NCBI RefSeq assembly: GCF_900292015.1
Contig: NZ_LR130759.1
Location: 2,542,001-2,606,000, forward strand
DNA: 64,000 nucleotides
Direction: 5' to 3'
Origin: Mycobacterium basiliense
GTDB taxonomy: Bacteria; Actinomycetota; Actinomycetes; Mycobacteriales; Mycobacteriaceae
This document shows, in pieces, positions 29,352-50,955 of the stretch. Position 1 is the first letter of the stretch. Each line of letters begins with the position of its first letter. The notes under the pieces were generated by a model. That model did not search any database. It was not told where the DNA came from and saw only the letters and a program-made list of their open reading frames with translations. The translations under genes were made by a program, and so were the position numbers.

Positions 29352-30535
<1,184 letters not shown>

Positions 30536-30536
<1 letters not shown>

Positions 30537-33025
30537 TGCGCGTTCCGTACAGCTGGTTGCGTGAGGTTGTTTCGGCTGGAGCGCCGGACTGGGATGTACC
30601 CGCTGCCGAACTAGAGGCGACGCTGGTGCGTATCGGCCACGAGATCGAAGAGGTGATCACGCTCGGTCCGGTCGAGGGGCCGTTGACCGTGGGCCGAGTC
30701 GCCGACATCGAGGAGCTCGACGGCTTCAAGAAGCCGATCCGTGCCTGCCTGGTAGACGTCGGTGGCGACAGCCAGCAGGAAATCGTTTGCGGTGCAACAA
30801 ACTTTGTTGTGGACGACCTGGTCGTTGTGGCGCTTCCCGGGACCACACTGCCGGGTGGATTTTCCATCACGGCCCGCAAGACCTACGGCCGCACATCCGC
30901 AGGAATGATCTGTTCGGCGGCCGAACTCGGTTTGGGCGCAGACCATTCCGGGATCCTGGTGCTGCCCCCTGGCACCGCCGAGCCCGGCGCCGACGCCGCC
31001 GGTGTACTCGGATTGGCCGATGTCGTATTCCATCTGGCGATCACGCCCGATCGTGGCTACTGCATGTCGGTGCGCGGCTTGGCTCGCGAGATCGCCTGCG
31101 CCTACGACCTCGACTTCGTCGACCCCGCCGACGTATCGCCATTGCCGGTCGAGGGGCCCGCGTGGCCGTTGACCGTGCAGTCCGAAACCGAGGTCCGCCG
31201 ATTTGCGCTGCGTCCGGTCACCGGAATAGATCCGGCCGCCTTGTCACCCTGGTGGCTGCAACGCCGGCTGCTGCTGTGCGGCATCCGCGCCACCTCACCG
31301 GCTGTCGACGTGACCAACTACGTGATGCTCGAACTGGGCCACCCGATGCACGCGCACGACCGCAGCCGGATCGCAGGCGCGTTAGCGGTGCGCTTTGCCC
31401 GGCCCGGCGAGGCCGTCGTCACCCTCGACGACGTCGAACGCCGGCTCGACTCGGGAGACGTGCTCATCGTCGACGATGCCGCTACCGCGGCAATCGGCGG
31501 CGTGATGGGTGCGTCGAGCACCGAGGTGCGTGCCGACTCCACCGATGTTCTGCTCGAGGCGGCGATATGGGATCCCGCTGCGGTATCGCGCACCCAACGG
31601 CGGTTGCACCTGCCCAGTGAGGCCGCCCGCCGCTACGAACGCGGGGTCGACCCGGCCATTTCGGTGGCAGCCTTGGATCGGTGCGCGGCATTGCTGGCAG
31701 ATATCGCCGGGGGAACAGTGGCGCCCACCTTGACCGATTGGCGGGGAGAACCGCCACGAGACGACTGGTCACTGCCCCCGATCCGGATCGCTGCGGACTT
31801 ACCGGACCGTTTCTCCGGGGTGGACTACGCCCAAGGCACAACGGCCCGCCGACTCGCCCAAATCGGTGCCGGGGTGGCCGACGACGGCCAAGGGGTGCTG
31901 GTTGTGACGCCGCCGAGTTGGCGCCCGGATCTCCTGCAGCCGGCCGACCTGGTCGAGGAGGTGATGCGGCTCGAAGGACTCGAGGTCATTCCTTCGGTGC
32001 TGCCCGCCGCTCCCGCGGGCCGAGGTCTGACGGCCCGGCAGCGGCGGCGTCGCGCAATCGGCAAATCGTTGGCACTGTCCGGCTACGTCGAAATCCTGCC
32101 GACACCGTTTCTGCCCGCCGGTGTTTTCGACTTGTGGGGGTTGGCGTCCGATGACCCGCGACGCAGCACGACGAATGTGGTCAACCCCCTGGAATCTGAC
32201 CGTCCGCAGCTGGCCACGACCCTGGTCCCGGCGCTGCTGGAAGCATTGAGCCGCAACGTTTCCCGCGGTTTGATCGACGTTGCGTTGTTTGCCATTGCCC
32301 AGGTAGTCCAGCCGACCGAGCAGACCCGCGGCATCGAGCTGATCCCGGTGCACCGCCGGCCCACCGACGGGGAAATTGCGGCGTTGGACGCGTCCTTGCC
32401 TCGGCAACCGCAACATGTGGCCGCGGTGCTGGCGGGGTTGCGCGAGTCGCGCGGCCCGTGGGGTGCCGGTCGCGCCGTCGAAGCGGCCGATGCATTTGAG
32501 GCGGTACGGATCATCGCGCGTGCAAGCGGTGTCGACGTGACCCTGCGAGCGGCGCAACATCTGCCTTGGCACCCGGGGCGATGTGCAGAAGTTTTGGTTG
32601 GCGAGACTCCCGTTGGGCATGCGGGGCAACTGCACCCGGCCGTCATTGAGCGGGCCGGCCTCCCGAAGGGTACGTGCGCGATCGAACTGAACCTCGATGC
32701 AATACCCATTGCCGAAGCGCTGCCTGCACCCAGAGTGTCGCCATTTCCCGCCGTTTTCCAGGATGTCAGCCTTGTGGTAGCCGCAGATGTCGCCGCCCAG
32801 TCGGTGGCCGATGCCGTGCGGGAAGGAGCCGGCGACCTGCTGGAAGACATTCAGTTGTTCGACGTCTTCACCGGGCCGCAGATCGGTGCGGCTCGCAAGT
32901 CACTGACCTTCGCGCTGCGGTTTCGCGCGCCAGATCGCACGCTGACTGAAGACGATGCGAGTGCGGCTAGAGACGCTGCGGTGCAGTGCGCTGCCGAGCG
33001 GGTCGGCGCCGTCCTGCGTAGCTGA
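30536..33025 (+). CDS. pheT: Phenylalanyl-tRNA synthetase beta subunit
   Basis: The 829-residue beta subunit. It starts [15 protein letters not shown] and has an OB-fold tRNA-binding region with [20 protein letters not shown] (about residues 80-100), the B3/B4 editing domain that hydrolyses mischarged Tyr-tRNA-Phe, the B5 region near 400-470, a catalytically inactive synthetase-like fold, and the C-terminal FDX-ACB anticodon domain ([15 protein letters not shown] onward). The protein is collinear with M. tuberculosis PheT (831 residues). The TGATG overlap with pheS is typical. The next feature, 241 nt later, is a PE gene, so the pheST transcript probably ends in that gap. Confidence 0.97.
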
Positions 33026-33266: not shown

Positions 33267-34853
33267 ATGTCATTTGTGAGCACAGTTCCGGACATGGTCA
33301 CGGCGGCGGCCGGGGATTTGGCAGGAATTCGCTCGGCGTTGGGCGAAGCCACCGCGGCTGCCGCTATCCCTACCACTGAGGTGGCGGCTGCCGCCGCCGA
33401 TGAGATATCGCTTGCGGTTTCGCGATTGTTCGGTTCCTTCGCTCAGGATTTTCAACTCGTCAGCGCCCAGGCGGCAGCGTTTCATGCCGAGTTCGTTGCC
33501 CTGTTAAATACCGGTGCGGGCGCGTATGTCAGTGCCGAGTTGGTAAACGCCCAGCAGACCCTGATCAACCTGATAAATGCGCCGGCGCAGGCGCTGCTTG
33601 GGTACCCGTTGATCGATGTTGGCGCCGCCACACCCAGTCAGGTGGTCCCCGTAGTCCCTGCCGTGGGGGCGGCGGTAGGCGGAGCTGTCGGTGGTGTTAC
33701 GGCTACCGCCGGGGCGGGTGTCGCCACAGCGACCGGGGCGGTTACGGATGCGGGGGCCGCCGTTGCCGTGGCAGCACCGGCAACCCTGACCGCGGCCCAA
33801 GGCAGCGCGGCCTCGCTGCTGCGGATCCCCGCGAGTCTGGAGACCGCGGCTGGCTCCGCCCTTAGTGTGTCGGGCGTCTCTGGTGCCCTGCAGGCGCTTG
33901 GCGTGTCTACACCGGCGTTGCTACAGAGCAGCGCGGCGGCGGCGGCCCCGGCCGCCACGGTCGGCGGTGCCTATCAGGACCTCTTCACCAATACCTGGGC
34001 CAACCTGCAAAGCCTTGGCGCAACCTGGGATGCGGACCCCGCGCCCTTCCTGAGCCAGTTCCTGGACAATCAGCTGGTCTACGCCAACACCATCGGGACG
34101 TCGCTATCCAGCGCGGCCCAGGACTTTGGCGCCGGGCTGGTTGCCTTGCCTTCGGCCTACCAGGCGGCTTTCCAAGCGCTGGCCGCCGGCGACGTCACCG
34201 GCGCAGTCGAGACCCTGGGCAAGGGCTACCTCAACCTCGTGTTTACCGGCTTCGATTACAGCAACGTGCCGGTGGTCACCATCAATGGCGCGTTGGGAGA
34301 CCTCCTCCCGATCGTCGGCATACCGGGTCTGATATCGCAGAACATGACCAACGTGCTTGTGACGCTTACCGACACGTCGATACTGGCCAACATTTCCCTA
34401 CTAGATCCCTCGTTCACCACCGGGCTTCCGCTGACGCTGGCCCTTGACGCGATCGGCGCCCCGATTGTCACCGGCCAGGCGGCCCTGCAAAGCGCCACGA
34501 CCTTTATCAATGCCGTGCAGACCGGTGATATCGGAGGGGCAGTCGGTGCGCTTATTGATGCGCCGGCAGTTATCGCCAACGGTTTCCTCAATGGCGAAGC
34601 GACGATAACGCTGGACCTGCCCACAGACTTGTTCACCTTTCCGGGGTTCACAACTGAATCATTAACCTCGGACATTCCGGTCGGTGGCATCCTCACCCCG
34701 CTCCAGCCCGTGCAGGCAACTGCAGTGCTCAAGCCCATTGTTGGGCCTCCCATCCAGCAAACAGTCCAGCTTGGTGGTACGCAGTTCGGCGGCATCATTC
34801 CTGGCTTGCTGAATGGCTCGGCACAGCTAGCGAATGCCATTAAGCTCAGCTAG
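33267..34853 (+). CDS. PE-family protein with PE-linked C-terminal module
   Basis: Encodes 528 residues. MSFVSTVPDMVTAAAGDLAG starts a complete PE domain, with the YxxxE export motif as YVSAE near residue 90. An Ala/Val/Thr-rich linker follows (about 115-220). Next is a helical region containing NTWANLQSLGATWDADPAPF and LPSAYQAAFQALAAGD, shared with the following PE gene. The end module has INAVQTGDIGGAVGALIDAP, GFLNGEATITL and LGGTQFGGIIPGLL, shared with both neighbours. ATG 33267 has GGGAGAGG before it. No PPE gene is adjacent. H37Rv has no equivalent here as far as I recall. Probably ESX-secreted and surface-associated; function unknown. Confidence 0.88.
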   Translation: MSFVSTVPDMVTAAAGDLAGIRSALGEATAAAAIPTTEVAAAAADEISLAVSRLFGSFAQDFQLVSAQAAAFHAEFVALLNTGAGAYVSAELVNAQQTLINLINAPAQALLGYPLIDVGAATPSQVVPVVPAVGAAVGGAVGGVTATAGAGVATATGAVTDAGAAVAVAAPATLTAAQGSAASLLRIPASLETAAGSALSVSGVSGALQALGVSTPALLQSSAAAAAPAATVGGAYQDLFTNTWANLQSLGATWDADPAPFLSQFLDNQLVYANTIGTSLSSAAQDFGAGLVALPSAYQAAFQALAAGDVTGAVETLGKGYLNLVFTGFDYSNVPVVTINGALGDLLPIVGIPGLISQNMTNVLVTLTDTSILANISLLDPSFTTGLPLTLALDAIGAPIVTGQAALQSATTFINAVQTGDIGGAVGALIDAPAVIANGFLNGEATITLDLPTDLFTFPGFTTESLTSDIPVGGILTPLQPVQATAVLKPIVGPPIQQTVQLGGTQFGGIIPGLLNGSAQLANAIKLS

Positions 34854-35026
34854 CCGTATCGGGGCCGTTAGGCGCTCCTGGGCGTCTGCCCTGGCTAATC
34901 GCGCGCCGACAACTTTGCGTGAACCGGCGAGGTCGGCGGTGAAAACGCGACTTCGCGGGTTTGGGATCGACAACCATCGGGTACTCGCGCGAAGCGTTGC
35001 GCGTCGTGCCTCGAGGGGAGATGGCT

Positions 35027-36919
35027 ATGTCGTTTGTGGTTGCTGATCCGGAGTCGGTGAGTGCGGCGGCGGCAAGTTTGGCCGACATTCGTTCGGCCCT
35101 CGGCGCGGCAGCTGGGGCGGCTGCCGGCCCCACGACCGGAGTGGCAGCTGCGGCCGCCGATGAGGTATCGAGCGCCATCGCCACACTTTTCGACACCTAC
35201 GGGCGGGAATTTCAGGCCGTCAACGCCCAAGCGGCAGCCTTTCATGCCGAGTTTGTGCGGTTGTTGAATGGCGGTGCTGCCGCATATCTCGGCACCGAAC
35301 TGGCCAACGCGGAAAAGAACCTCCTGAGTGCTGTGAATGCGCCTGTCCAGATGATGCAAGGCTCACTGGGCGACGCCGCACTGGCCACCGTTACGGGTGG
35401 TGGCACAGCGGCCGCCGCGGAAACCAGCGGCGGGCTGTTGGGAGCGCTGTTTGGCGCCGGCACCGGAGGCGTAGGAGGGATCCTCGGTGGCAGTGGTGGG
35501 TTATTGGACCCGATTGTCTTTGGGGGCACCGGCGGGCTTTTTGGTCCGCTCATCGGCGGCAATGGGGCTCTCACCGCGCTGATCGGCAACGGGCCGCTTG
35601 CCCCGTTCTTCGACGGCGCAGGCCAACAGGTCGGAACCGCATTGTCGGCCCTGATCAGTGGCAACGGAGCCGCGCTGCTGTCTGAGCAGATCGGAGCGAT
35701 CACCGGGGACCTCGCTGGCCTGCCCGGCCTGGGTGGGCTGCAGGCATTGTTGCCGGGTCTGTTCCCACCCAGCGGCGGCACTCCCACCGCACCTGCGCCC
35801 GGCGGTGCATGGCAGCAACTTGCCGTGAACACCAACACCAACTTGATGGCCCTCACCGATGCTTGGGCGGCCGACCCATTTCCGCTTTTGCGTCAGGTCA
35901 TCGCCAACCAGCAGGGCTACGCGTACTTGCTTGGGCAGGATCTGAGCCTGGCTATCCAGAATTTCCCCGCCGAGGTAGTGCTCCTTCCGGAGACCATCGA
36001 AGCCGGCATCCAGAACCTGCTCGCCTTCAACCCGGGCTTGTACGCTCAGCAGTTCGCCGACGGCACGTTTGACGACTTCCAGACGATCGGTACATCTTTA
36101 GGTGAAGCGGGCCGCGACCTGCAGATCGGGCTGGCCGGTTTCCCGTCCGACATGCAAACCGCTGTACAGGCATTTGCGGCCGGGGACTACCACCTGGCAG
36201 TCAATGACGCTACGAAGGCCTTGCTCAATGTCTTTATCACTGGATTTGATACCAGCGACTTGAACGATATTCGGTTGCTGGGACCGGTAGCCGATCTGTT
36301 CCCGATCCTGGCCATCCCTGGTCAAGACATTCAAGGTTTGAGCAACCTCTTGCCTGCCGGTTCGATTCCGGCCCAGATGACACACAACTTGGCCAACGTC
36401 GTCAATGTGCTCACAGATACCAGCATCTCGACCACGATCTCGGGAACCCTAGATCCTCCGGCGCTGGTTCTCGGAGCAAACTTTGGATTGCCGCTATCCG
36501 TCTTGTTCGGGGTAGCCGGAGCGCCGGTTGCCGGACTTGACGGGCTCGCAACCGCAGGGACGACGATTGGAAATGGAGTCGCGACCGGAAATCCACTTAT
36601 GGTGGCAAGCGGTCTCATTGACGCTCCAGCGCTCTTCCTGGATGGCTTCCTCAATGGCGAAACCATCGTCGATATGGCGTTGCCGGTGACGTTCGACGTG
36701 CCGATCATTGGGCCCCTCAACATACCGGTCGTCATTCATTTGCCCTTCCAGGGGCTTCTCGTTCCACCGCACCCCATTACGGCGACGGTGCCGCTCGAAA
36801 TTCTTGGTATCGATATCCCGATCGACTTGACCCTTGGCGGTACCCAATTCGGCGGATTGGTCCCCACCCTGGTCAACAACGTGCCCCACCAACTTGCTGA
36901 GGCAATCAAACCAGCGTAG
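35027..36919 (+). CDS. PE-family protein, Gly-rich linker plus C-terminal module
   Basis: Encodes 630 residues. MSFVVADPESVSAAAASLAD opens the PE domain; the YxxxE motif is YLGTE. The linker (about 120-260) is rich in GG pairs (GAGTGGVGGILGGSGG and similar), a short PGRS-like stretch though without true GGA-GGN tandem arrays. A helical region resembling that of the previous PE gene follows (LMALTDAWAADPFPLLRQV, then LPETIEAGI). The end module shows GLIDAPALFLDGFLNGETIV and LGGTQFGGLVPTLV. Start ATG 35027 is preferred over 35021 because MSF is the family start; GAGGGGAG is upstream. It lies 173 nt after the previous PE gene. Probably a diverged duplicate of it. Confidence 0.87.
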   Translation: MSFVVADPESVSAAAASLADIRSALGAAAGAAAGPTTGVAAAAADEVSSAIATLFDTYGREFQAVNAQAAAFHAEFVRLLNGGAAAYLGTELANAEKNLLSAVNAPVQMMQGSLGDAALATVTGGGTAAAAETSGGLLGALFGAGTGGVGGILGGSGGLLDPIVFGGTGGLFGPLIGGNGALTALIGNGPLAPFFDGAGQQVGTALSALISGNGAALLSEQIGAITGDLAGLPGLGGLQALLPGLFPPSGGTPTAPAPGGAWQQLAVNTNTNLMALTDAWAADPFPLLRQVIANQQGYAYLLGQDLSLAIQNFPAEVVLLPETIEAGIQNLLAFNPGLYAQQFADGTFDDFQTIGTSLGEAGRDLQIGLAGFPSDMQTAVQAFAAGDYHLAVNDATKALLNVFITGFDTSDLNDIRLLGPVADLFPILAIPGQDIQGLSNLLPAGSIPAQMTHNLANVVNVLTDTSISTTISGTLDPPALVLGANFGLPLSVLFGVAGAPVAGLDGLATAGTTIGNGVATGNPLMVASGLIDAPALFLDGFLNGETIVDMALPVTFDVPIIGPLNIPVVIHLPFQGLLVPPHPITATVPLEILGIDIPIDLTLGGTQFGGLVPTLVNNVPHQLAEAIKPA

Positions 36920-37674
36920 TACCCGTGCGCCGGAACGCCGATCCGCAGTGCACATCGTATGGGCCATCGGCATTTCGTCGTTGATCCATGCGACGCTCGC
37001 CGGAACCGTCTCAATGTGTCAACGGGATAACTGCGCGAAGACGCCTCGAAAAGCATCTTCGCGATTCTCACGAACCTAAATTATTGGTATACAGCGTGAT
37101 TGCTATCGGTGCCGTAACCCGGAATTGAAGAGGAGTCCAAACCCGGTGCGTTCTTAGGCAACCACTCCCGACGTTGGTTGTGATGGTGGTGCCTAGCACT
37201 GTGGTGGAAAGGGCGCTCAGCGTTCGCCTTTCGGCTTTCAAGGTATCCGGGTGTCGCGGTGGTCTCCGCTTCGCTATTTGTCGTGTGTTCATCTAGACGC
37301 TCACAATATGTCTAACATGTTGCGCGGCACGATAAGACAGCTGATGATCGACGTGATGCCAAGCCGGAGTCCAGCGCCGGAACGGCGGAGTCGAGCATGA
37401 TGTGAAATTTACTATGCGGCAATTTGTTAGCCGGTGGCGCCCACTCCACATGGGGCAACGCGGCCTCTTCGCTGACAGGCTGCCGCACCGAGCAGTGGGA
37501 CCCGCCACCCCGAGTTGAGTTCGTCCTTCAGGCCACAGTGTGCGGCGATGGGTTCAATCACGTGAAAATGATGATTTTCCGCAATTGCTGTGCCACAGCG
37601 GATTACGTTGAGTTCGCTGATGGGATCGGGCCTCATCGCGTTACAGACCGTTCATTTGCGTGGGGACGATGAAC
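36920..37674. other. Long intergenic region before the repeat PE gene
   Basis: 755 nt without a convincing gene; open frames present have no ribosome site or recognisable protein. It is more AT-rich than its surroundings. GCGAAGACGC (37035-37044) and GCATCTTCGC (37053-37062) form a stem of ten pairs with one mismatch and an 8-nt loop. CAACCA/TGGTTG (37159-37180) makes a second stem. The segment AATTATTGGTATACAG near 37079-37096 looks promoter-like. The size suggests a long 5' leader, a regulatory region for the large PE gene, or a decayed gene. Confidence 0.4.
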
Positions 37675-40600
37675 ATGTCTTTTGTTAACGTGGTGCCCGA
37701 GGTACTCGAAGCGGCAGCCCAAGACTTGGCAGGTATTCAATCAGCGCTGCAAGAGGTGAGTGCTGCGGTCGCAGCGCCCACCACCGCATTGGCGGCTGCG
37801 GGGGAGGACGAGGTATCAGCCGCAATCGCAGCGCTATTCGGCACGTTCGGCAAGGAATATCAAGCCGTCAGCGCACAAGCGTCGGCCTTCCATGATGCGT
37901 TCGTCAAGGCGATGGGCGGGTCCGCCGCTTCGTATCTGGAAGCGGAGGTAGCGAATGGTGTTGCCCTCTTAACGGGTCAAAGCGCCGCCGCCGCAGTGGG
38001 CGCGGAGCTCAGTGGTGGGCTAATGGCCGGTTTGACGGGTGAGCTTGCGCTTCAAACCGCCAGCTCGCTGGCGACGGCTTTCGGCTCGGGCGTCTCGGGT
38101 CTAGCGTTGCAGACCGGTGGCGCCATCGTGTCCGGCATCGGCACGGGGCTGGTTCAAACCGGTGAGGCCATCGTCGCGATGGGCAACTCGCTGCAGAACT
38201 TCGGTGCGTTGATATCGGGCTTCGGCGTTGGACTAAGTGCCCAGGCAAACGCCGCTCTCACCCAGGCCCTGACCTTGGGTGGTTCGTTAGGCGCCCAGCT
38301 GAGCGCGTCACTGTCAGGCAGCTTCGATCTCGGTCTTCCTGAGCTGATTGCGGCGTTCAATAGCGGATTTAGCGGGCTGCTTCAGACCGGCCAAACCGTG
38401 ACGGCAAACCTGATTGGAAACGTCAGTGGGGGGATTAGCGGACTAATCCAAACCGGCGGAAGCATTTTGGCTAACTTCGGTGGCAGTCTGCCCGACCTGG
38501 CGGCGCAGTTTAATGCGGCGTTGCAGGCCAGTTTTGGTGGGGCGTTTCCGGAGTTGGTGGGGGCGTTTAGTGGTGGGTTGAGTGGGTTGGTGCAGGCCGG
38601 TCAGGAGTTGTTGGCCAATGTGGCGGCTGGTTTTGGTGGTGGGTTGAGTGGTTTGGTGCAGGCCGGGCAAACACTGCTGGTGAATTTGGCTGGTGGGTTG
38701 AGTTTGCCGGCGTTGGCGGCGCAGTTTAATGCGGCGTTGCAGGCCAGTTTTGGTGGGGCGTTTCCGGAGTTGGTGGGGGCGTTTAGTGGTGGGTTGAGTG
38801 GGTTGGTGCAGGCCGGTCAGGAGTTGTTGGCCAATGTGGCGGCTGGTTTTGGTGGTGGGTTGAGTGGGTTGGTGCAGGCCGGGCAAACACTGCTGGCGGC
38901 GTTAAGTGGTGGGTTGAGTTTGCCGGCGTTGGCGGCGCAGTTTAATGCGGCGTTGCAGGCCAGTTTTGGTGGGGCGTTTCCGGAGTTGGTGGGGGCGTTT
39001 AGTGGTGGGTTGAGTGGGTTGGTGCAGGCCGGTCAGGAGTTGTTGGCCAATGTGGCGGCTGGTTTTGGTGGTGGGTTGAGTGGGTTGGTGCAGGCCGGGC
39101 AAACACTGCTGGCGGCGTTAAGTGGTGGGTTGAGTTTGCCGGCGTTGGCGGCGCAGTTTAATGCGGCGTTGCAGGCCAGTTTTGGTGGGGCGTTTCCGGA
39201 GTTGGTGGGGGCGTTTAGTGGTGGGTTGAGTGGGTTGGTGCAGGCCGGTCAGGAGTTGTTGGCCAATGTGGCGGCTGGTTTTGGTGGTGGGTTGAGTGGG
39301 TTGGTGCAGGCCGGGCAAACACTGCTGGTGAATTTGGCTGGTGGGTTGAGTTTGCCGGCGTTGGCGGCGCAGTTTAATGCGGCGTTGCAGGCCAGTTTTG
39401 GTGGGGCGTTTCCGGAGTTGGTGGGGGCGTTTAGTGGTGGGTTGAGTGGGTTGGTGCAGGCCGGTCAGGAGTTGTTGGCCAATGTGGCGGCTGGTTTTGG
39501 TGGTGGGTTGAGTGGGTTGGTGCAGGCCGGGCAAACACTGCTGGCGGCGTTAAGTGGTGGGTTGAGTTTGCCGGCGTTGGCGGCGCAGTTTAATGCGGCG
39601 TTGCAGGCCAGTTTTGGTGGGGCGTTTCCGGAGTTGGTGGGGGCGTTTAGTGGTGGGTTGAGTGGGTTGGTGCAGGCCGGTCAGGAGTTGTTGGCCAATG
39701 TGGCGGCTGGTTTTGGTGGTGGGTTGAGTGGGTTGGTGCAGGCCGGGCAAACACTGCTGGCGGCGTTAAGTGGTGGGTTGAGTTTGCCGGCGTTGGCGGC
39801 GCAGTTTAATGCGGCGTTGCAGGCCAGTTTTGGTGGGGCGTTTCCGGAGTTGGTGGGGGCGTTTAGTGGTGGGTTGAGTGGGTTGGTGCAGGCCGGTCAG
39901 GAGTTGTTGGCCAATGTGGCGGCTGGTTTTGGTGGTGGGTTGAGTGGGTTGGTGCAGGCCGGGCAAACACTGCTGGCGGCGTTAAGTGGTGGGTTGAGTT
40001 TGCCGGCGTTGGCGGCGCAGTTTAATGCGGCGTTGCAGGCCAGTTTTGGTGGGGCGTTTCCGGAGTTGGTGGGGGCGTTTAGTGGTGGGTTGAGTGGGTT
40101 GGTGCAGGCCGGTCAGGAGTTGTTGGCCAATGTGGCGGCTGGTTTTGGTGGTGGGTTGAGTGGGTTGGTGCAGGCCGGGCAAACACTGCTGGTGAATTTG
40201 GCTGGTGGGTTGAGTTTGCCGGCGTTGGCGGCGCAGTTTAATGCGGCGTTGCAGGCCAGTTTTGGTGGGGCGTTTCCGGAGTTGGTGGGGGCGTTTAGTG
40301 GTGGGTTGAGTGGGTTGGTGCAGGCCGGTCAGGAGTTGTTGGCCAATGTGGCGGCTGGTTTTGGTGGTGGGTTGAGTGGGTTGGTGCAGGCCGGGCAAAC
40401 ACTGCTGGTGAATTTGGCTGGTGGGTTGAGTTTGCCGGCGTTGGCGGCGCAGTTTAATGCGGCGTTGCAGGCCAGTTTTGGTGGGGCGTTTCCGGAGTTG
40501 GTGGGGGCGTTTAGTGGTGGGTTGAGTGGGTTGGTGCAGGCCGGTCAGGAGTTGTTGGCCAATGTGGCGGCTGGTTTTGGTGGTGGGTTGAGTGGGTTGG

Positions 40601-42255
40601 TGCAGGCCGGGCAAACACTGCTGGTGAATTTGGCTGGTGGGTTGAGTTTGCCGGCGTTGGCGGCGCAGTTTAATGCGGCGTTGCAGGCCAGTTTTGGTGG
40701 GGCGTTTCCGGAGTTGGTGGGGGCGTTTAGTGGTGGGTTGAGTGGGTTGGTGCAGGCCGGTCAGGAGTTGTTGGCCAATGTGGCGGCTGGTTTTGGTGGT
40801 GGGTTGAGTGGGTTGGTGCAGGCCGGGCAAACACTGCTGGCGGCGTTAAGTGGTGGGTTGAGTTTGCCGGCGTTGGCGGCGCAGTTTAATGCGGCGTTGC
40901 AGGCCAGTTTTGGTGGGGCGTTTCCGGAGTTGGTGGGGGCGTTTAGTGGTGGGTTGAGTGGGTTGGTGCAGGCCGGTCAGGAGTTGTTGGCCAATGTGGC
41001 GGCTGGTTTTGGTGGTGGGTTGAGTGGGTTGGTGCAGGCCGGGCAAACACTGCTGGTGAATTTGGCTGGTGGGTTGAGTTTGCCGGCGTTGGCGGCGCAG
41101 TTTAATGCGGCGTTGCAGGCCAGTTTTGGTGCGGCGTTTCCGGAGTTGGTGGGGGCGTTTAGTGGTGGGTTGAATGGCCTGGTTCAGATCGGGCAGACGT
41201 TCGCCGCAGGTTTGGCCGGGAGTTTCAACGCCCCGGCGTTGGTCGCCGCATTCAACGCAGGGCTTAATGGGCTGATCGACACAACGCAAGCTGTGGCAGT
41301 CAATTTGGCGGCGGGGTTTAACGCGCCGGCGTTCGTGGCTGCTCTCAACGGCGGGCTCAACGGTTTGATCCAGACCGGACAGGCGCTGGCAATCAACCTC
41401 GCGGGTAGCTTTAATGCGCCGGCTTTGGCGGCCCAGCTGAGCGCGGCGCTACAGGCCGGCCTGGGCGGTTCGGTTCCGGCGCTGGTGGGCGCCTTTAATG
41501 GGGGCCTTAGCGGGTTGATCCAGACCGGACAGTCGTTGGCGACCAGCCTTATGGGTGGCTTCAACGTGCCGGCGTTGGCGGCCCAGCTAAGTGCGGCATT
41601 GCAGGCTGGACTGGGCGGCTCGATTCCGGCGATGGTTGGCGCGTTTAGCGGCGGGCTCAACGGGTTGGTCCAAACCGGCGAAGCCCTGGCCGGCACCCTG
41701 GCAGGCGCCTTTGGCGGAAGCTTGCCGGAGTTGGCCGCCAACTTATCAACGGCCTTGTCGGCCAGCTTAAGTGGGAACCTGTCGGCGGAGCTGAGCACCG
41801 CCCTAACGGCGGGTATTAGCAACACGCTATCGGGGTTGGCGCAGACCGGTGCAACGCTGGCGGGCAGCTTTGGCGGTGCGCTTTCGGGTCTCATCGGTAC
41901 CGGTGAAGCGTTGGTGGGCACCTTCGGTGCGGGTGCTTCCGGGCTCTTGCAAACGGGAGAAGCACTCGCCATGATCTGGCAGAACACCGCCGCGCAGATT
42001 GGCGGAACATTAACTAGTGCGCTGGGGGCGACCCTGGGTGTCGCGTTCCCGGGGCTGTCGCAGGCAGGTACGACGCTCGTGACTGGGATTGTGAATGCCA
42101 CTGCTGGACTTGGCCAGACCGGCGGCGTCATTTTGACCGCTTTGGACCAGGGTGCTCTCGGTCTAGCGGCCGATATCCGCGCAGCTTTGGCCAACCTTGA
42201 ACTGGCGATCCAGGCGGCCTTAAGCGCTAGCTTCGGCGTTCAGGTCGGTACGTAG
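37675..42255 (+). CDS. Giant PE-family repeat protein
   Basis: Encodes 1526 residues. [20 protein letters not shown] begins a normal PE domain with the YxxxE motif as YLEAE near residue 91. The rest is built from related helical-looking units of the pattern [13 protein letters not shown] and [13 protein letters not shown]. Residues about 276-1139 are twelve 72-residue copies nearly identical in DNA; less regular copies flank them on both sides (for example [20 protein letters not shown]). It lacks the PGRS GGA-GGN pattern and the end module of the neighbouring PE genes. The array uses TTG and GGT codons heavily, unlike its neighbours. ATG 37675 is the family start (GGGGA upstream); ATG 37669 and GTG 37660 are alternatives. 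Probably a secreted or cell-surface protein; function unknown. Confidence 0.88.
38500..41170 (+). repeat. Tandem array, 216-bp unit, 12 full copies plus a partial
   Basis: Units begin (GCGGCGCAGTTTAATGCGGC) at 38500, 38716, 38932, 39148, 39364, 39580, 39796, 40012, 40228, 40444, 40660, 40876 and, partial, 41092. The period is exactly 216 bp (72 codons). Copies are nearly identical at the DNA level except for a block near the unit end that is either GTGAATTTGGCT (VNLA) or GCGGCGTTAAGT (AALS). Each unit also holds two internal copies of the [10 protein letters not shown] motif. The coding strand is G/T-rich. This argues for recent amplification or gene conversion. Confidence 0.97.
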
Positions 42256-42330: not shown

Positions 42331-42456
42331 AAGCAGCGCGAGCGCGACGGTGACCAGGCCGTGGTCAAGGACGCTGGTGGGACCGGCTGGCGCGGTCGCT
42401 TGCGCCGATGCCCGAAAGGCGTGCGGCATAGAGGCATAGGGCAATACAGGGACAAT

Positions 42457-42498
42457 TTGGCAGCGACGAGATACGACCTCTGTAATACTGTTCGAACA
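42457..42498 (+). promoter_or_regulatory. Promoter and palindrome of the first AfsR-type gene
   Basis: TTGGCA (42457-42462), an 18-nt spacer and TGTAAT (42481-42486) match five of six bases of each SigA hexamer, a strong promoter for this genome. The perfect 10-bp palindrome TGTTCGAACA (42489-42498) lies at the expected start point, about 85 nt before the coding start. It could be an operator, possibly for the regulator itself. It shares GTTCGA with the mycobacterial LexA box but lacks its spacing. Confidence 0.5.
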
Positions 42499-42579
42499 AC
42501 GACTGCCATTCGCGTCGTATGTTACGCATTGCCTATACGCTGCGATTGCCGCGCGCCTCCGCAGAAGGGTTGCACTCGG

Positions 42580-45513
42580 ATGATGGTCGAGTTCTGCCTT
42601 CTCGGAGAAGTGGAAGTTCTCGTCGACGGGCGGCGACTAGAACTTGGCCATGCGCGTCAACGGTGCGTGCTCGCCGCGTTGATGGTCGAGGCGAACCGTA
42701 CGATTTCCGTGGCGCAGTTAATTGACCGCGTTTGGGGGGATGCGCCGCCTTTTTCGGCTCGCAATTCCTTGACAAGCTACGTGTCTCGATTGCGGAATCT
42801 GGTTGCTGGTACCCAAAGTGCGTCGATTTCGCGTAGGTCGAGCGGTTATGTGCTTACCACTGACGCAGCGTCGGTGGATTTGCATCGCTTTCGGCACTTG
42901 GTTGCCCAGGCACGCGCGATGCTGGACCCGGGCGAGTCCGCAGATGTACTTGACCGTGCACTGGACATGTGGAAAGGGCAGCCCCTCGCATTCCTTGACA
43001 CACCTTGGGTGAACAACCTTCGCGGTTCCCTTGTTCACGAGCGACTTGCGGTACAACTGGACCGCAACGACATCGCTTTGAAAGCGGGACGCCACGCCGA
43101 GCTGCTAGCGGGGCTTGCTACGACGTTGGGCGCCCACCCATTGGACGAACGTGTTGCGGGCCAATTGATGCTGGCCCAGTACCGCAGTGGTCGGCGCGCG
43201 GAAGCGCTGCGCACCTATTGGGAGATGCGCAAGCGGCTCGCCGAGGAGCTAGGGGTGGATCCCGGCCCGGAGCTACACCAGGTGCATCAGCGCATTCTTG
43301 CCGAAGAACCGGGTATGCAGGCATCGGAGGGTGCATCGCGGGGTGGCTCGGGTCCGTGGATAGCGCCGGTCGGTGCTGAATCGGCATCGAGTCTCTTGCG
43401 GCGCGTGACCGGCTTCGTGGGTCGCGCACAAGAATTGGCGCAGGCTGCAGACGCATTGCGACAGGCTCCTCTGCTGACATTGGCTGGGGTCGGTGGGGTG
43501 GGCAAGACGCGGTTGGCATTCGAGGTAGCTCGGCGCCAGCAGCAGCAGCGCGTCGCGGACAATGTGTGGATCTGCGAGCTGGGACCGTTGGACAGCGCTG
43601 ATGCGGTGGGGCACACCGTTGCTTTGGCGCTGAGGTTGCGCCAACAGCCGGGCCTTGACATCGAGGAATCGGTAATCGGGTACCTGCGGGCGCGAGAAGG
43701 TCTGTTGGTGGTCGATAACTGCGAACACGTGCTTGAGACTGCCGCGAACTTGGTTCAGCGGATCGTACGGCACTGCCCCGGCGTCTGCGTATTGGCGACT
43801 AGCCGGCAACCGTTGGGCATTGAGGGTGAGCGGATCATTGTGGTGCCACCCATGGCGGTGGAGGATGCGGCCCGGTTGTTCGCCGACCGGGCTCGTGCGA
43901 GCCGGCCAGACTTCACATTGGACGACCAGCCGGTGGGGGTGGTAGCCGAGATTTGTTGGCGGGTGGATTGTCTGCCGTTGGGCATAGAGCTGGCCGCGGC
44001 ACGCACGCGGGCGATGAGTGCAGCCGATATGCTTCGGCGCCTAAATGATTCGCGTCTACTGCGTGGCGGTGCGCGGGGAGCGCTCGTTCGACATCAGAGT
44101 CTGAACGCGACAATCGATTGGTCGTATCACTTGCTTACCGAATCCGAACAAGCGTTTTTTGCCAGGCTTTCGGTGTTCGCGGGGTCTTTCGATTTGGATG
44201 CCGCTCACGAGGTGTGCGGTGCAGACGGCGTCGGTGACGACGAAACCTTGGAGTTGATAGCCAGTCTGGTCGACAAATCGATGGTGACCGTGCTGAGTGT
44301 TGCTGGCCGGACCCGGTACGGGATCCTCGAAACGCTGCGCGCCTACGCACGAGAACGACTGCAGGAGAAGGGAAGTGATTCCCGTTATGCCTCACGCCAT
44401 GCGATGTACTTCACCGAACTCGCCGAGTTGGCCGGCGTGGGTGTGCACGGCCCCGACGAGCGTGACTGGATTGAGCGGATTCTGCCCGACAATGACAATC
44501 TGCGCGCGGCGTTCGAGTGGGCAATGCTCAGCGGCGCAATCGATGTTGCGATGCGACTGATCGCATCGTTGCCTGAACTTATCGGGGTGCGTGTCGGTTA
44601 CGAAGTAGCCGGCTGGGCCGAGCGACTGGTTGCGGTTGCCGATCCGGGGCATCGGCTGTTCGCCGAGGTCGTGGGCGTGGCGGCGCGGGGTGCCTGGAAT
44701 CTCGGTGATTCCTCGCGGGCGCGCCACCTGGTGGCCCTGGCCGAGGATCGTCTTCCAAGGCGAGATTGCGCACGCATCTCATATCCGGCCGACGTGCTGG
44801 CCGATGCGGCCCTCGCTGTTGGCGACGCGAGCAAAGCGTCAACGTACTGGGCAGCCGAGGTAGATCGCGCTCGGCGTGAGGACAACCCGCTTCGGTTGGT
44901 GCAAGCGATCTCCGCACTCGCGGGCTGTCAGGGCGTGCTGGGTAACACAGAAGCAGCTTCGCCGGCCGCCCTGGAGGCGGTGGCCGTCGCCGATCGCATG
45001 GCCAACCCGACGGCGCAGTCGATGGCCTACTTCGGGTTGGGCTTTTTGCTCAAAAAATCCGAGCCCGAGCGTGCGCTGGAATTGTTCGACGAGGCGGCTC
45101 GGCTCGCCTGGGATGTGCAGAATTTCTGGTGGTATGGCATCGCGTTGATGGAGGCCGCGGGAACACGTGCGGTGCAAGGAGATCCGGCAACCGCGGCACG
45201 AATGTTCATCGAGGTGCTCGACCATTGGGATCGCGTCGGAGACTGGGCTGAGCAGTGGGTGTGCCTTCGCTACGTCGCGCGTCTGTTGGCCCGGCTCGGC
45301 GCCGACGAGGATGCCCTGTTTGTCCACAGCGCCGTTGTCGCCGCGGGCAAGCCCCCGCCGCTACGTGCAGAACTGCTGCAGGGGCTCACCGCACGGGTGG
45401 GCGCGGACGGCTTGGCTGCCAGCCCAAGCGGGGAGGTCAGCGGGGCGAACGCAGTCGCTCGGGCGGCGTCGCGCCTGCGACGCTATGCCGGACCATGCCA
45501 CCTCGACGTATAG
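42580..45513 (+). CDS. AfsR/SARP-type regulator: wHTH-BTAD-NB-ARC-TPR (copy 1)
   Basis: Encodes 977 residues. It has an OmpR-like winged helix (about 1-95: VEFCLLGEVEVLVDGRRLEL, LIDRVWGDAPP), a BTAD helical repeat domain (about 96-245, ending ELGVDPGPEL), and a STAND/NB-ARC ATPase with P-loop GVGGVGKTRLAF near residue 302, Walker B LLVVDNCEHV near 375 and ATSRQPLGIEGE. A TPR-like C-terminal half follows. This is the layout of AfsR-class activators, which use ATP-dependent assembly to switch on target operons. ATG 42580 (or 42583) follows AGAAGGG; the open frame further upstream lies in the promoter. The next gene is its paralogue on the same strand. Targets are unknown; the PE genes upstream are candidates by position only. 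Confidence 0.9.
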   Translation: MMVEFCLLGEVEVLVDGRRLELGHARQRCVLAALMVEANRTISVAQLIDRVWGDAPPFSARNSLTSYVSRLRNLVAGTQSASISRRSSGYVLTTDAASVDLHRFRHLVAQARAMLDPGESADVLDRALDMWKGQPLAFLDTPWVNNLRGSLVHERLAVQLDRNDIALKAGRHAELLAGLATTLGAHPLDERVAGQLMLAQYRSGRRAEALRTYWEMRKRLAEELGVDPGPELHQVHQRILAEEPGMQASEGASRGGSGPWIAPVGAESASSLLRRVTGFVGRAQELAQAADALRQAPLLTLAGVGGVGKTRLAFEVARRQQQQRVADNVWICELGPLDSADAVGHTVALALRLRQQPGLDIEESVIGYLRAREGLLVVDNCEHVLETAANLVQRIVRHCPGVCVLATSRQPLGIEGERIIVVPPMAVEDAARLFADRARASRPDFTLDDQPVGVVAEICWRVDCLPLGIELAAARTRAMSAADMLRRLNDSRLLRGGARGALVRHQSLNATIDWSYHLLTESEQAFFARLSVFAGSFDLDAAHEVCGADGVGDDETLELIASLVDKSMVTVLSVAGRTRYGILETLRAYARERLQEKGSDSRYASRHAMYFTELAELAGVGVHGPDERDWIERILPDNDNLRAAFEWAMLSGAIDVAMRLIASLPELIGVRVGYEVAGWAERLVAVADPGHRLFAEVVGVAARGAWNLGDSSRARHLVALAEDRLPRRDCARISYPADVLADAALAVGDASKASTYWAAEVDRARREDNPLRLVQAISALAGCQGVLGNTEAASPAALEAVAVADRMANPTAQSMAYFGLGFLLKKSEPERALELFDEAARLAWDVQNFWWYGIALMEAAGTRAVQGDPATAARMFIEVLDHWDRVGDWAEQWVCLRYVARLLARLGADEDALFVHSAVVAAGKPPPLRAELLQGLTARVGADGLAASPSGEVSGANAVARAASRLRRYAGPCHLDV

Positions 45514-45631
45514 CGTGTCGATCTGACGGTGCGAATGCTGCGGCATATTCATTGCGCGACTAATTGCCGCGTATGCTCGCAGTACCCGCCACACCGTTTG
45601 CTGTGCGCCTTTGCAGAGAGGGTGTACCTCA

Positions 45632-48562
45632 ATGACCGTCGAGTTCCGCCTGCTCGGCGATGTCGAGGTCTTGGTCGACGGGCAACGGCTCGACCTAGGA
45701 CATGCGCGTCAGCGGTGTGTGCTGGCCGCGCTGCTGGTCGATGTGAACCATCCTGTCTCGGTGGATCATCTAGTTGATCGGGTTTGGTCGGACCGGCCGC
45801 CGTACTCGGCCCGTGGTTCGTTGACAAGCTACGTGTCTCGGCTGCGAACGTTGCTCGCCGAAGTTCGTGGCGTGGTGATTTCGCGTGGCTCGGGTGGCTA
45901 TGTGCTGGAAGCGGATTCGTTGTCGATCGACCTGTTCCGCTTCCGAGCAATGGCATCTCAAGCGCGGTCGACCCCGGACCCGATTGAGGCGGCGGCGCTG
46001 TTTGATCGTTCGCTCGCCCTGTGGGGTGGCGAACCCTTTGCATCTCTGGACACGCCATGGGCAAACGAAATGCGGCGCGCTTTGCAGTCCGAGCGGCGTT
46101 CGGTGGAACTGGACCGCAACGACGCCAAATTGCGCACTGGACGCCACAGTGAGCTGCTGGCGGGGCTGACCGCTGAACTAGCGGTCCACCCGCTGGATGA
46201 ACGGTTGGCCGGTCAATTGATGCTGGCCCAATACCGCAGCGGCCGCCAAGCCGACGCGCTGGCCACCTACCGGCATATGCGCCAGCGGCTGGTTGACGAA
46301 CTCGGCGTTGATCCCGGTTCGACCTTAAAGCAGATGCATCAACACATCCTTGCCGGCGAGACCGACGGCGCGATGCCACAGCCGGATCGGACCGGGCCAG
46401 GCCACCCGGCAACGGTGCCGGCGCAGGTCGCACATCCGGGCCTGGCGCGGCGGGTGACTAGCTTCGTGGGACACCAGCAGGAGCAGGCCAGCGTCATCGG
46501 CGCCCTGCGGGAGAGCCCGCTGGTGACGCTAACCGGAGTGGGCGGTGTCGGTAAGACTCGGTTGGCGCTGGAGGTCGCGCGCGACGCCCAGGCGGAGTCT
46601 GCTGACCGGGTATGGATCTGCGAACTGGCACCGCTAGATCACCCCGACGCGGTGGGACACACTGTTGCGGCCGCGCTGGGATTGCGGCAACAACCGGGCT
46701 TGGACATAGAAGAATCCGTAATCGAATACCTAAGGGCGCGTGCGGCATTGGTAGTCGTCGACAACTGTGAGCACGTCGTGGAGGCGGCCGCAAGACTGGT
46801 AGAGCGAATCGTGCAACAGTGCCCGCGGGTGTCAGTATTGGCCACCAGCAGGCAACCCCTGGGCATCGAGGGTGAGCGAATCGTGGTGACGCCACCGCTA
46901 GCCGTGACCGATGCCACCCAGTTGTTCGCCGATCGGGCCAGGGCGGGCCGGCCGGACTTCAAGCTGGAGGATCAGCCGGACGGCGTGGTGGCCGAGATCT
47001 GTCGGCGGGTTGACTGCCTGCCGCTAGGAGTGGAACTCGCGGCGGCGCGGATGCGGGTGATGAGTGCCCCCGACGTGGTTCGCCGCCTGGACCGCCTGGA
47101 ATTCCTGCGCGGCGGCTCGCGCGGGGCGCTTCCTCGCCAGCAGAGCCTGGCCGCGACCATCGACTGGTCGTATAGATTGCTCAGCGAATCCGAGCAAGCC
47201 CTTTTTTCCCGCCTGTCCGTGTTTGCTGGCTCGTTCGACCTGGACGCCGCACACGGAGTGTGTGGGTTGGACGGTGCTACCGAGGACGACACGCTCGAGC
47301 TACTAGCTGGGCTAGTGGACAAATCGATGGTGGTCGTGCGCAGCGTGAGCGATCGGACTCGCTACGGCTTGCTAGAAACCTTGCGCGCGTGCGCGCGAGA
47401 TCGGTTGCAGGAGTGTGGGACCGCCGAGCAATATGCGAGGCGGCATGCGACGTATTACACCGAGCTTGTTGAGCGTGCCGGCGTTGGTGTACAGGGTCCC
47501 GATGAACGGGATTGGGTCAAGCGGATGTTGCCGGACTACGACAACCTGCGGGCCGCGTTCGAGTGCGCAATGGCCGATGAAGACGCCGATCTTGGGTTAC
47601 GGCTGGTCGCGTCGGCATCGGAGCTCTGCGCGCTCAGGATCGGCTATGAGGTGGCCGGTTGGGCCGAGCGCGTCATCGACATCGCCGATGCGGACCACCC
47701 GTTGTATGCCGCCGTTGTGGGTACCGCCGCGCGGGCCGCCTGGGCCCAGGGCGACTTTGGTCGGGTACGTCGTCTGGCGCCGCTCGCCGCCGGGCGCATT
47801 CCCGGCCCTGGTACCGCGCGCTTTGCCTACCCGGCGGACGCGCTGACCGACGTCGCGCTGTTCGAGGGTGACGTGCACGGTGTCCTCGCGTACTGGCGGG
47901 GCGCGGCAGATCATGCGCGGCGCGTTGGCGATCCGATCCGGCTGTCGCAGACGCTTAGCACGGTGGCGGTGTGTCAGCGCGTGTTGTTCAATTCCGAGGA
48001 CGCGTTGCTGGCGGGCCGGGAGGCGGTGGAGGTCGCCGAAAGCACCGCCAACCCCACGACCCGGTCGGGCGCCTATTTTTCCCTGGGCTTCTTGCTCAAG
48101 AAGTCTGAGCCCGCACGTGCGCTGGCCCTGTTTGACGAGGCCGCGAGGTTGGCCGGGCAGGCGCAAAATTTCTGGTGGTATGGCATCGCATTAATGGAGG
48201 CCGCGGCTACGCGAGGCGTGCACGGCGATCCCAGAGAAGCGGCCCGGCTCTTCGTTGAAGTGCTTGACCACTGGGACAGAGTCGGAGACTGGTCAGAGAT
48301 GTGGATCAGCCTGCGCTACGTCACTCGGTTGCTGGTTCGGCTCGGCGCTGACGAGGATGCGTTGTTTTTGCACTTCGCACTGCTGACGGCGGGCAAGCCG
48401 TCGCCGTTGCGTGCAACTCAGCTGACGGCCCTGGAGGACCGCCTGGGTGCAGGGCGGCTGGACGTTGAATGGGCGGCGGGCGCCGATGGTCCCGCGGCGG
48501 TCACCCGGGCGCGAGGGTCGCTGCAGCGCTACACCCAACCCGCGGCGGCTGCCATCATCTAG
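45632..48562 (+). CDS. AfsR/SARP-type regulator: wHTH-BTAD-NB-ARC-TPR (copy 2)
   Basis: A 976-residue paralogue aligning with copy 1 from end to end without large gaps: VEFRLLGDVEVLVDGQRLDL at the start, P-loop GVGGVGKTRLAL near residue 301, LVVVDNCEHVVEAA, ATSRQPLGIEGERIVV, and the same TPR-like tail (SLGFLLKKSEPARALALFDE). The 118-nt gap ends in GCGCCT-TTGCAGA before the start, similar to the leader of copy 1 (GCGCCT-CCGCAGA), so the duplicated unit included part of the leader. ATG 45632 has AGAGAGGG upstream. A weak -10 (TATGCT) lies near 45570. The two could form a tandem regulator cascade or respond to different ligands; neither is testable from sequence alone. Confidence 0.9.
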   Translation: MTVEFRLLGDVEVLVDGQRLDLGHARQRCVLAALLVDVNHPVSVDHLVDRVWSDRPPYSARGSLTSYVSRLRTLLAEVRGVVISRGSGGYVLEADSLSIDLFRFRAMASQARSTPDPIEAAALFDRSLALWGGEPFASLDTPWANEMRRALQSERRSVELDRNDAKLRTGRHSELLAGLTAELAVHPLDERLAGQLMLAQYRSGRQADALATYRHMRQRLVDELGVDPGSTLKQMHQHILAGETDGAMPQPDRTGPGHPATVPAQVAHPGLARRVTSFVGHQQEQASVIGALRESPLVTLTGVGGVGKTRLALEVARDAQAESADRVWICELAPLDHPDAVGHTVAAALGLRQQPGLDIEESVIEYLRARAALVVVDNCEHVVEAAARLVERIVQQCPRVSVLATSRQPLGIEGERIVVTPPLAVTDATQLFADRARAGRPDFKLEDQPDGVVAEICRRVDCLPLGVELAAARMRVMSAPDVVRRLDRLEFLRGGSRGALPRQQSLAATIDWSYRLLSESEQALFSRLSVFAGSFDLDAAHGVCGLDGATEDDTLELLAGLVDKSMVVVRSVSDRTRYGLLETLRACARDRLQECGTAEQYARRHATYYTELVERAGVGVQGPDERDWVKRMLPDYDNLRAAFECAMADEDADLGLRLVASASELCALRIGYEVAGWAERVIDIADADHPLYAAVVGTAARAAWAQGDFGRVRRLAPLAAGRIPGPGTARFAYPADALTDVALFEGDVHGVLAYWRGAADHARRVGDPIRLSQTLSTVAVCQRVLFNSEDALLAGREAVEVAESTANPTTRSGAYFSLGFLLKKSEPARALALFDEAARLAGQAQNFWWYGIALMEAAATRGVHGDPREAARLFVEVLDHWDRVGDWSEMWISLRYVTRLLVRLGADEDALFLHFALLTAGKPSPLRATQLTALEDRLGAGRLDVEWAAGADGPAAVTRARGSLQRYTQPAAAAII

Positions 48563-48679: not shown

Positions 48680-50955
<2,276 letters not shown>

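Follow-up and report, generated by a model that had tools for sequence, protein, structure and literature searches.

Here we present an analysis of a repeat-containing PE gene of Mycobacterium basiliense, a lung-associated mycobacterium, in a stretch of 64,000 nucleotides (contig NZ_LR130759.1 of assembly GCF_900292015.1, positions 2,542,001 to 2,606,000; hereafter the window). The gene, at 37675–42255 on the + strand, is probably the M. basiliense member of a group of PE genes of the pheT–argC interval in slow-growing mycobacteria, whose members keep their two ends and rebuild the array in the middle. The coding sequence starts with ATG at 37675 (MSFV; an alternative ATG lies at 37669), stops with TAG at 42253–42255 (included in the coordinates) and encodes 1526 residues. 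Its N-terminal PE domain (PF00934; 37684–37956) scores 104 bits against a curated cut-off of 22 (E 5.4e-30), has PE8 (5xfs) as its nearest solved structure and includes YLEAE, a YxxxE motif found by motif scan at residues 87–91 (37933–37947). There follow a linker that, on reading, contains degenerate kin of the repeat modules (37957–38502), a tandem array of 12 units of exactly 216 bp, or 72 residues (38503–41094), the start of a 13th unit that is truncated and decaying (41095–41177), further degenerate kin of the array modules (41178–41778, with a 150-bp period at 78% matches within 41347–41678) and a conserved C-terminal domain of 158 residues (41779–42252), which was located by profile, belongs to no Pfam family and defines the group. 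A preliminary description of this DNA had proposed a PE protein of about 1526 residues with twelve nearly identical 72-residue repeats at a 216-bp period, and each of these features was recovered.

The C-terminal profile was built from six members, the M. basiliense sequence included, and searched against 396 Mycobacterium genomes (G-numbers below are labels within this set; G000 is M. basiliense). Matches were obtained in 50 of the 396 genomes at E ≤ 1e-3 and in 43 at 100 bits or more; the M. basiliense domain, itself among the sources of the profile, scores 218 bits. Scanning named genomes recovered 20 loci, including M. persicum, M. innocens, M. gastri, M. attenuatum, M. simulans, M. szulgai, M. 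angelicum, M. intermedium, M. paraense, M. gordonae and M. asiaticum. No Pfam match was found for the domain in the M. basiliense member, and weak, composition-type matches to two families were found in no more than 4 of the 18 members. The ratio of non-synonymous to synonymous substitution rates (dN/dS) in this domain is roughly 0.13–0.29 between M. basiliense and eight relatives and 0.05–0.50 over all 36 pairs. The YxxxE motif stands at residue 87 in 16 of the 17 relatives listed, and was not found in G405, for which the start codon was not identified. Sequence comparison shows that the gene ends (the PE domain with YxxxE and the C-terminal domain) have been inherited and that purifying selection acts on them.

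The members also share a place. Gene order in M. basiliense is pheT, two PE genes, the PE-repeat gene, two BTAD regulators and argC. We hand-picked 25 loci, including this one, for strong matches and long contigs, excluding G017 and G007, in which the gene is broken over contigs. argC lies within the available stretch at 23 of these loci (the other two stop at a contig end), and the gene is upstream of argC in 23 of 23, in either orientation; where both pheT and argC are available, it lies between them (10 of 10). In M. basiliense and G069, other genes intervene between it and argC. The loci were selected on the C-terminal domain, so that their common place counts as independent evidence. Of 20 genomes lacking a C-terminal match (hand-picked, mainly near relatives on few contigs, and so not a random sample), 12 have a pheT–argC gap below 300 bp, 7 a gap of 1.27–2.18 kb and one a gap of 4.6 kb; PE genes lie in the gap of two (G380 and G026).

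The middle of the M. basiliense gene is an almost perfect array. Tandem Repeats Finder (TRF) reports a period of 216 bp with 12.4 copies, 98% matches and a score of 5045 (38498–41177), whereas none of 50 dinucleotide shuffles of the coding sequence scored above 74. Thirteen seeds are spaced exactly 216 bp apart; 12 units are complete and unit 13, from 41095, decays after about 80 bp. Each unit is built of two 22-residue modules (16 of 22 positions identical) and 28 further residues. Two unit haplotypes, V (VNLAG) and A (AALSG), are present six times each in the order V A A V A A A V V V A V, in which no higher-order block duplication was clear by eye. They differ at 7 positions inside a 10-bp cassette (unit positions 179–188), outside which a single substitution, in unit 1, was found in 2592 bp. 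The A-type unit contains 15 Gly, 15 Ala and 14 Leu among its 72 residues and two charged residues, both Glu. The Gly/Ala/Leu-rich, amphipathic character that had been proposed for the repeats is thus present, the amphipathicity to a moderate degree: the best 18-residue moment is 0.515, compared with 0.338 ± 0.058 after shuffling, and 4 of 1000 shuffles reached it. On its coding strand the array has an extreme GC skew (+0.52), and C never occurs three times in succession; no G-quadruplex pattern was found in the array. Of the 15 Escherichia coli Chi octamers on the + strand of the window, six lie in the array, about one per V-type unit. Antisense open reading frames within the array were attributed to the scarcity of stop codons in the repeat.

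Across the group, the arrays differ in period, copy number and chemistry. TRF was run on all 25 genes, including partial ones, and an array was called strong at a score of 1000 or more. Strong arrays were found at 20 of the 25 loci, with main periods from 120 to 1113 bp, and every period listed for the 25 genes is a multiple of 3. A 216-bp period is shared by M. basiliense, G260 (22.3 copies at 86%) and, in degenerate form, G010 and G391. The other periods are 243 bp (G245, G242 and G098) and 150 bp (G115), unit lengths that occur in the M. kansasii complex, 120 bp (G121), 264 bp (G088 and G023, the latter a C-terminal piece), 1113 bp (G006, 6.8 copies; G226, 4.8 copies), 162 bp with longer multiples (G405 and G251, 162/999 bp), about 447/894/1341 bp (G253 and G284) and about 519 bp (G218, G158 and G272). 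In G017, outside the 25, Pro-rich repeats with a 144-bp period lie on two contigs. The composition of the middle region ranges from Gly/Ala/Leu through Ala-rich (32%, G006) to Pro-rich (16%, G251), and charged residues make up 0–4.5% of it in the 25 genes or pieces.

The history of the units points to turnover. The 12 M. basiliense units form one clade (Shimodaira–Hasegawa-like approximate likelihood ratio test 100) with a mean difference of 1.8%; they differ by 28% from the units of G260, the nearest of three relatives compared, and the G260 units need two changes on the unit tree. The 1113-bp units of G006 and G226 (6 and 4 copies, leaving out edge copies that run past the array) are 99.6–100% alike within each genome, apart from one G006 copy at 96%, and 86% alike between the genomes, of which the C-terminal ends are 87.5% alike. 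By this sequence comparison, the arrays of these two related species have evolved in concert and changed in copy number (6.8 versus 4.8). In a tree of argC from 32 genomes, G251 (162/999 bp) is nested with the 1113-bp genomes G006 and G226 at support of 98/95 and 100/100, and the array type has therefore been replaced inside a well-supported clade.

Several observations weigh against this picture. The units of G010 and G391 interleave in the tree (proteins of 2366 and 2367 residues), so that not all arrays turn over fast; set beside the single clade of M. basiliense, this indicates that some lineages have young, homogenised arrays whereas others have old and stable ones. Five of the 25 loci (G029, G182, G069, G132 and G144) have no strong array; among these, contig ends truncate G132 and G144, and the open frame of G069 is short and has no PE start. 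The Pro-rich arrays may not be homologous to those of other lineages. Synonymous sites are near-saturated in the M. basiliense comparisons, which makes the dN/dS values rough, and the structure models are unusable (predicted local distance difference test score, pLDDT, 36 for the array and 42 for the C-terminal domain).

In the reading that we consider likely, the inherited ends enclose an in-frame tandem array that expands and contracts. The pattern of near-identical copies is observed; recombination or slippage between units would be the mechanism that homogenises them. In different lineages the array is rebuilt, either from 22-, 28- and 9-residue modules or from wholly different repeats. 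The product probably leaves the cell through type VII secretion, ESX-5 being the likeliest route; its amphipathic helices may lie on or in the outer mycomembrane, with the array setting the length of the envelope part.

It is quite conceivable, at somewhat less than even chances, that this length has no function and that the middle is a permissive spacer in which arrays grow and are homogenised by recombination. Unit type, length and composition shift freely among relatives while the ends are kept, and the G029 protein, of 535 residues, has no array. For M. tuberculosis, the in-frame tendency of pe/ppe variants has been ascribed to mechanism and not to selection (PMC12817950). Drift of this kind fits less well with periods that all preserve the frame and a middle that stays low in charge, at 0–4.5%. 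Comparison of unit consensus sequences points the same way, with a pN/pS or dN/dS of 0.21–0.30 between M. basiliense and three relatives, although G010 versus G391 gives 0.44.

A length-switching surface antigen, variable between strains and selected for immune evasion, appears unlikely; the preliminary description had raised copy-number differences between strains as a possible source of antigenic or length variation. Copy number does differ between related species here, and variable-number tandem repeats (VNTRs) inside PE/PPE genes differ between M. tuberculosis H37Rv and Erdman (PMC12817950). The units, however, are identical in protein save one short cassette, so that a change in copy number alters length and hardly epitopes, and the preference of the PMC12817950 authors for mechanism over selection also speaks against it. 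Strain data bear little on the question. Six M. basiliense isolates lie at most two single-nucleotide polymorphisms apart, excluding those in repetitive non-ribosomal peptide synthetase genes, and no further differences could be reliably called (PMC6331445), so these isolates are uninformative on copy-number variation. Protein searches for strain variants returned 6, 10 and 0 distant proteins and did not return the M. basiliense protein either; as they score only candidates sharing most words, a miss carries little weight.

A bolder extension of our preferred reading, of kept ends and a rebuilt middle, is speculative and rather improbable: a dedicated repeat-rebuilding PE gene, with fixed ends around a lineage-specific helical or Pro-rich module, amplified in a manner tied to replication, that would give each species its own envelope protein and allow its length to change in a single recombination step. 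Amplification tied to replication is proposed because third-position GC skew follows gene direction relative to argC. The skew is negative in all 6 genes running against argC (G023 partly out of frame). Of the 17 that run with argC, 15 have a positive or zero skew, the exceptions being G010 and G391; the 17 include G017, a piece shown by other evidence to run with argC. As the genes fall in few clades, this pattern is a lead and not a test.

That the gene is an orthologue of PE_PGRS30 with altered repeats is very improbable. The two would share the interval if Rv1651c sits between pheT and argC, a position that no literature listing showed. The M. basiliense protein has neither the GRPLI motif nor GGX repeats. 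An identity of 40% has been reported between the C-terminal domains of PE_PGRS30 and Rv3812 (PMC4229189). The neighbours at 33267 and 35021 may carry a C-terminal domain of this type.

A wrong or collapsed copy number is the least credible account: the draft relatives G017, G007 and G132 do break within the gene, but the single contig of G000 (5,607,630 bp) agrees with the published genome of type strain 901379 (5,607,630 bp, PacBio RSII/HGAP, mean 140-fold coverage, Illumina polishing; PMC6331445), and arrays of the same sort are present in the single-contig genomes G006, G260, G405, G218 and G284. A short-read artefact, set beforehand as refuting the preliminary description, is unlikely because of this agreement. 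In the relative M. simulans (L027:8166-11046), the open frame breaks inside the array, through either an assembly error or a broken gene.

Protein features are consistent with export. A YxxxD/E motif after the PE helices is the type VII secretion signal, and ESX-5 is the usual export route for PE-type proteins. The PE domain, the YxxxE at residue 87 and the PE8 match together suggest type VII export, and the protein is probably exported by such a system, most likely ESX-5. It contains 3 Lys and Arg and 51 Asp and Glu among 1527 residues, with a grand average of hydropathy of 0.80; the few charges, this hydropathy and the moderate helical moment suggest helices on a lipid surface. Judging from composition, low-charge amphipathic helices may lie on or in the outer mycomembrane, and the array may set an envelope-associated length, a proposal that we regard as tentative. 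The extended solenoid that had been envisaged is unsupported: AlphaFold2 predicted four array units as all helix, at a pLDDT of 35.7 and a predicted template modelling score of 0.25, which neither demonstrates nor excludes a fold. A PDB sequence search with the repeat profile gave no match at E ≤ 0.01. Pfam/NCBIfam matches to HemN_C, CrcB, TenA, Baculo_PEP_C and MS_channel_TM1 were judged to be composition matches, and LipY matches in the two PE neighbours and two relatives were confined to the PE region and below cut-off.

The interval around the gene is bordered by genes recognised from their sequence as pheT (30443–33025) and argC (48687–49748); for both, the coordinates begin with the open frame and not with the start codon. 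All genes named here are on the + strand. Next to pheT lie a PE gene with a different C-terminal domain (33267–34853; GYPLI linker, LGGTQFGG near the end) and a second PE gene with a C-terminal domain related to it (35021–36919). The PE-repeat gene is followed by a BTAD (SARP-like) regulator of uncertain start codon, with STAND/AAA and TPR matches below Pfam cut-offs (42361–45513), and a second, similar BTAD regulator (45611–48562). The two PE and two regulator neighbours were scanned and none is a PPE protein; a PPE partner elsewhere in the genome was not sought. BTAD-like proteins or pieces occur in at least 6 of 22 holder stretches searched, M. basiliense included, several of which hold the interval only partly. 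The C-terminal domain of the neighbouring PE genes (33267–36919) was matched in 21 of the 22, with none in G405; in G098 the sole match falls outside the interval.

Elsewhere in the M. basiliense genome, a 786-residue PE paralogue (L031:2961-5318) has weakly similar GLxGLxQTGxxL modules and scores 46 bits with the C-terminal profile. Contig C1 of G000 contains 134 matches to the PE domain, some of which form sets of neighbours with equal scores (5461348, 5464246 and 5467230); in this PE family search, an E. coli control genome unexpectedly exceeded the cut-off. Two Gly-rich open frames are 3198 and 5409 residues long, the former a PE_PGRS with 621/1863-bp periods. A plasmid search returned 13 records and 16 places, with each best place within residues 1–100 and none covering more than 80% of the query.

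Within the literature covered, PE/PPE repeat variation has been discussed for M. tuberculosis PE_PGRS and PPE genes, and a description of the present group was not found among titles and abstract openings, a coverage that takes in few subscription papers. A second, non-PGRS type, with its kept ends, constant chromosomal position and arrays particular to each lineage, offers a natural series in which the importance of array length and of array chemistry can be compared. In short-read surveys of nontuberculous mycobacteria, the locus will be broken or collapsed.

PE_PGRS proteins have a PE N-terminus, a long, repetitive and polymorphic middle and a unique C-terminal end (PMC7550000, PMC4229189), with a GRPLI linker and GGA-GGX repeats as features (PMC7550000). 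The M. basiliense protein resembles PE_PGRS30 and PE_PGRS33 in its PE N-terminus, long repetitive middle and distinct C-terminal end, but lacks the linker and the three-residue glycine period and has helical amphipathic Gly/Ala/Leu modules instead. Its residues 1–200 contain no G.PL[IV] motif, whereas GRPLV is present in another protein of this genome, a PE_PGRS, and GGX pairs number 0.0 per 100 residues versus 15.1 in that protein. The repeats are thus unlike PGRS, as had been claimed, and the missing linker and GGX repeats rule out PE_PGRS membership. The hallmark of the MPTR proteins is the NxGxGNxG repeat, and the repeats of ppe10, ppe24 and ppe34 are of this type; no such repeat is present in the M. 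basiliense protein, which rules out MPTR membership. PE8, its best PDB match (E 2.1e-18), shares the PE domain but is a chain of 104 residues without array or C-terminal domain. Between M. tuberculosis H37Rv and Erdman, ppe10, ppe24 and ppe34 are among the genes with in-frame variants at in-gene VNTRs (PMC12817950), and a mutable in-frame array in the PE/PPE superfamily is therefore not new in kind. The likeness lies in in-frame tandem repeats with copy-number change inside a PE/PPE gene; the difference is that those are PPE genes, whereas ours belongs to the PE family, has units of 216 bp and ends in a conserved orphan C-terminal domain. What is new, as far as the literature listings go, is this Pfam-less conserved domain, the constant position of the gene and the replacement of entire arrays.

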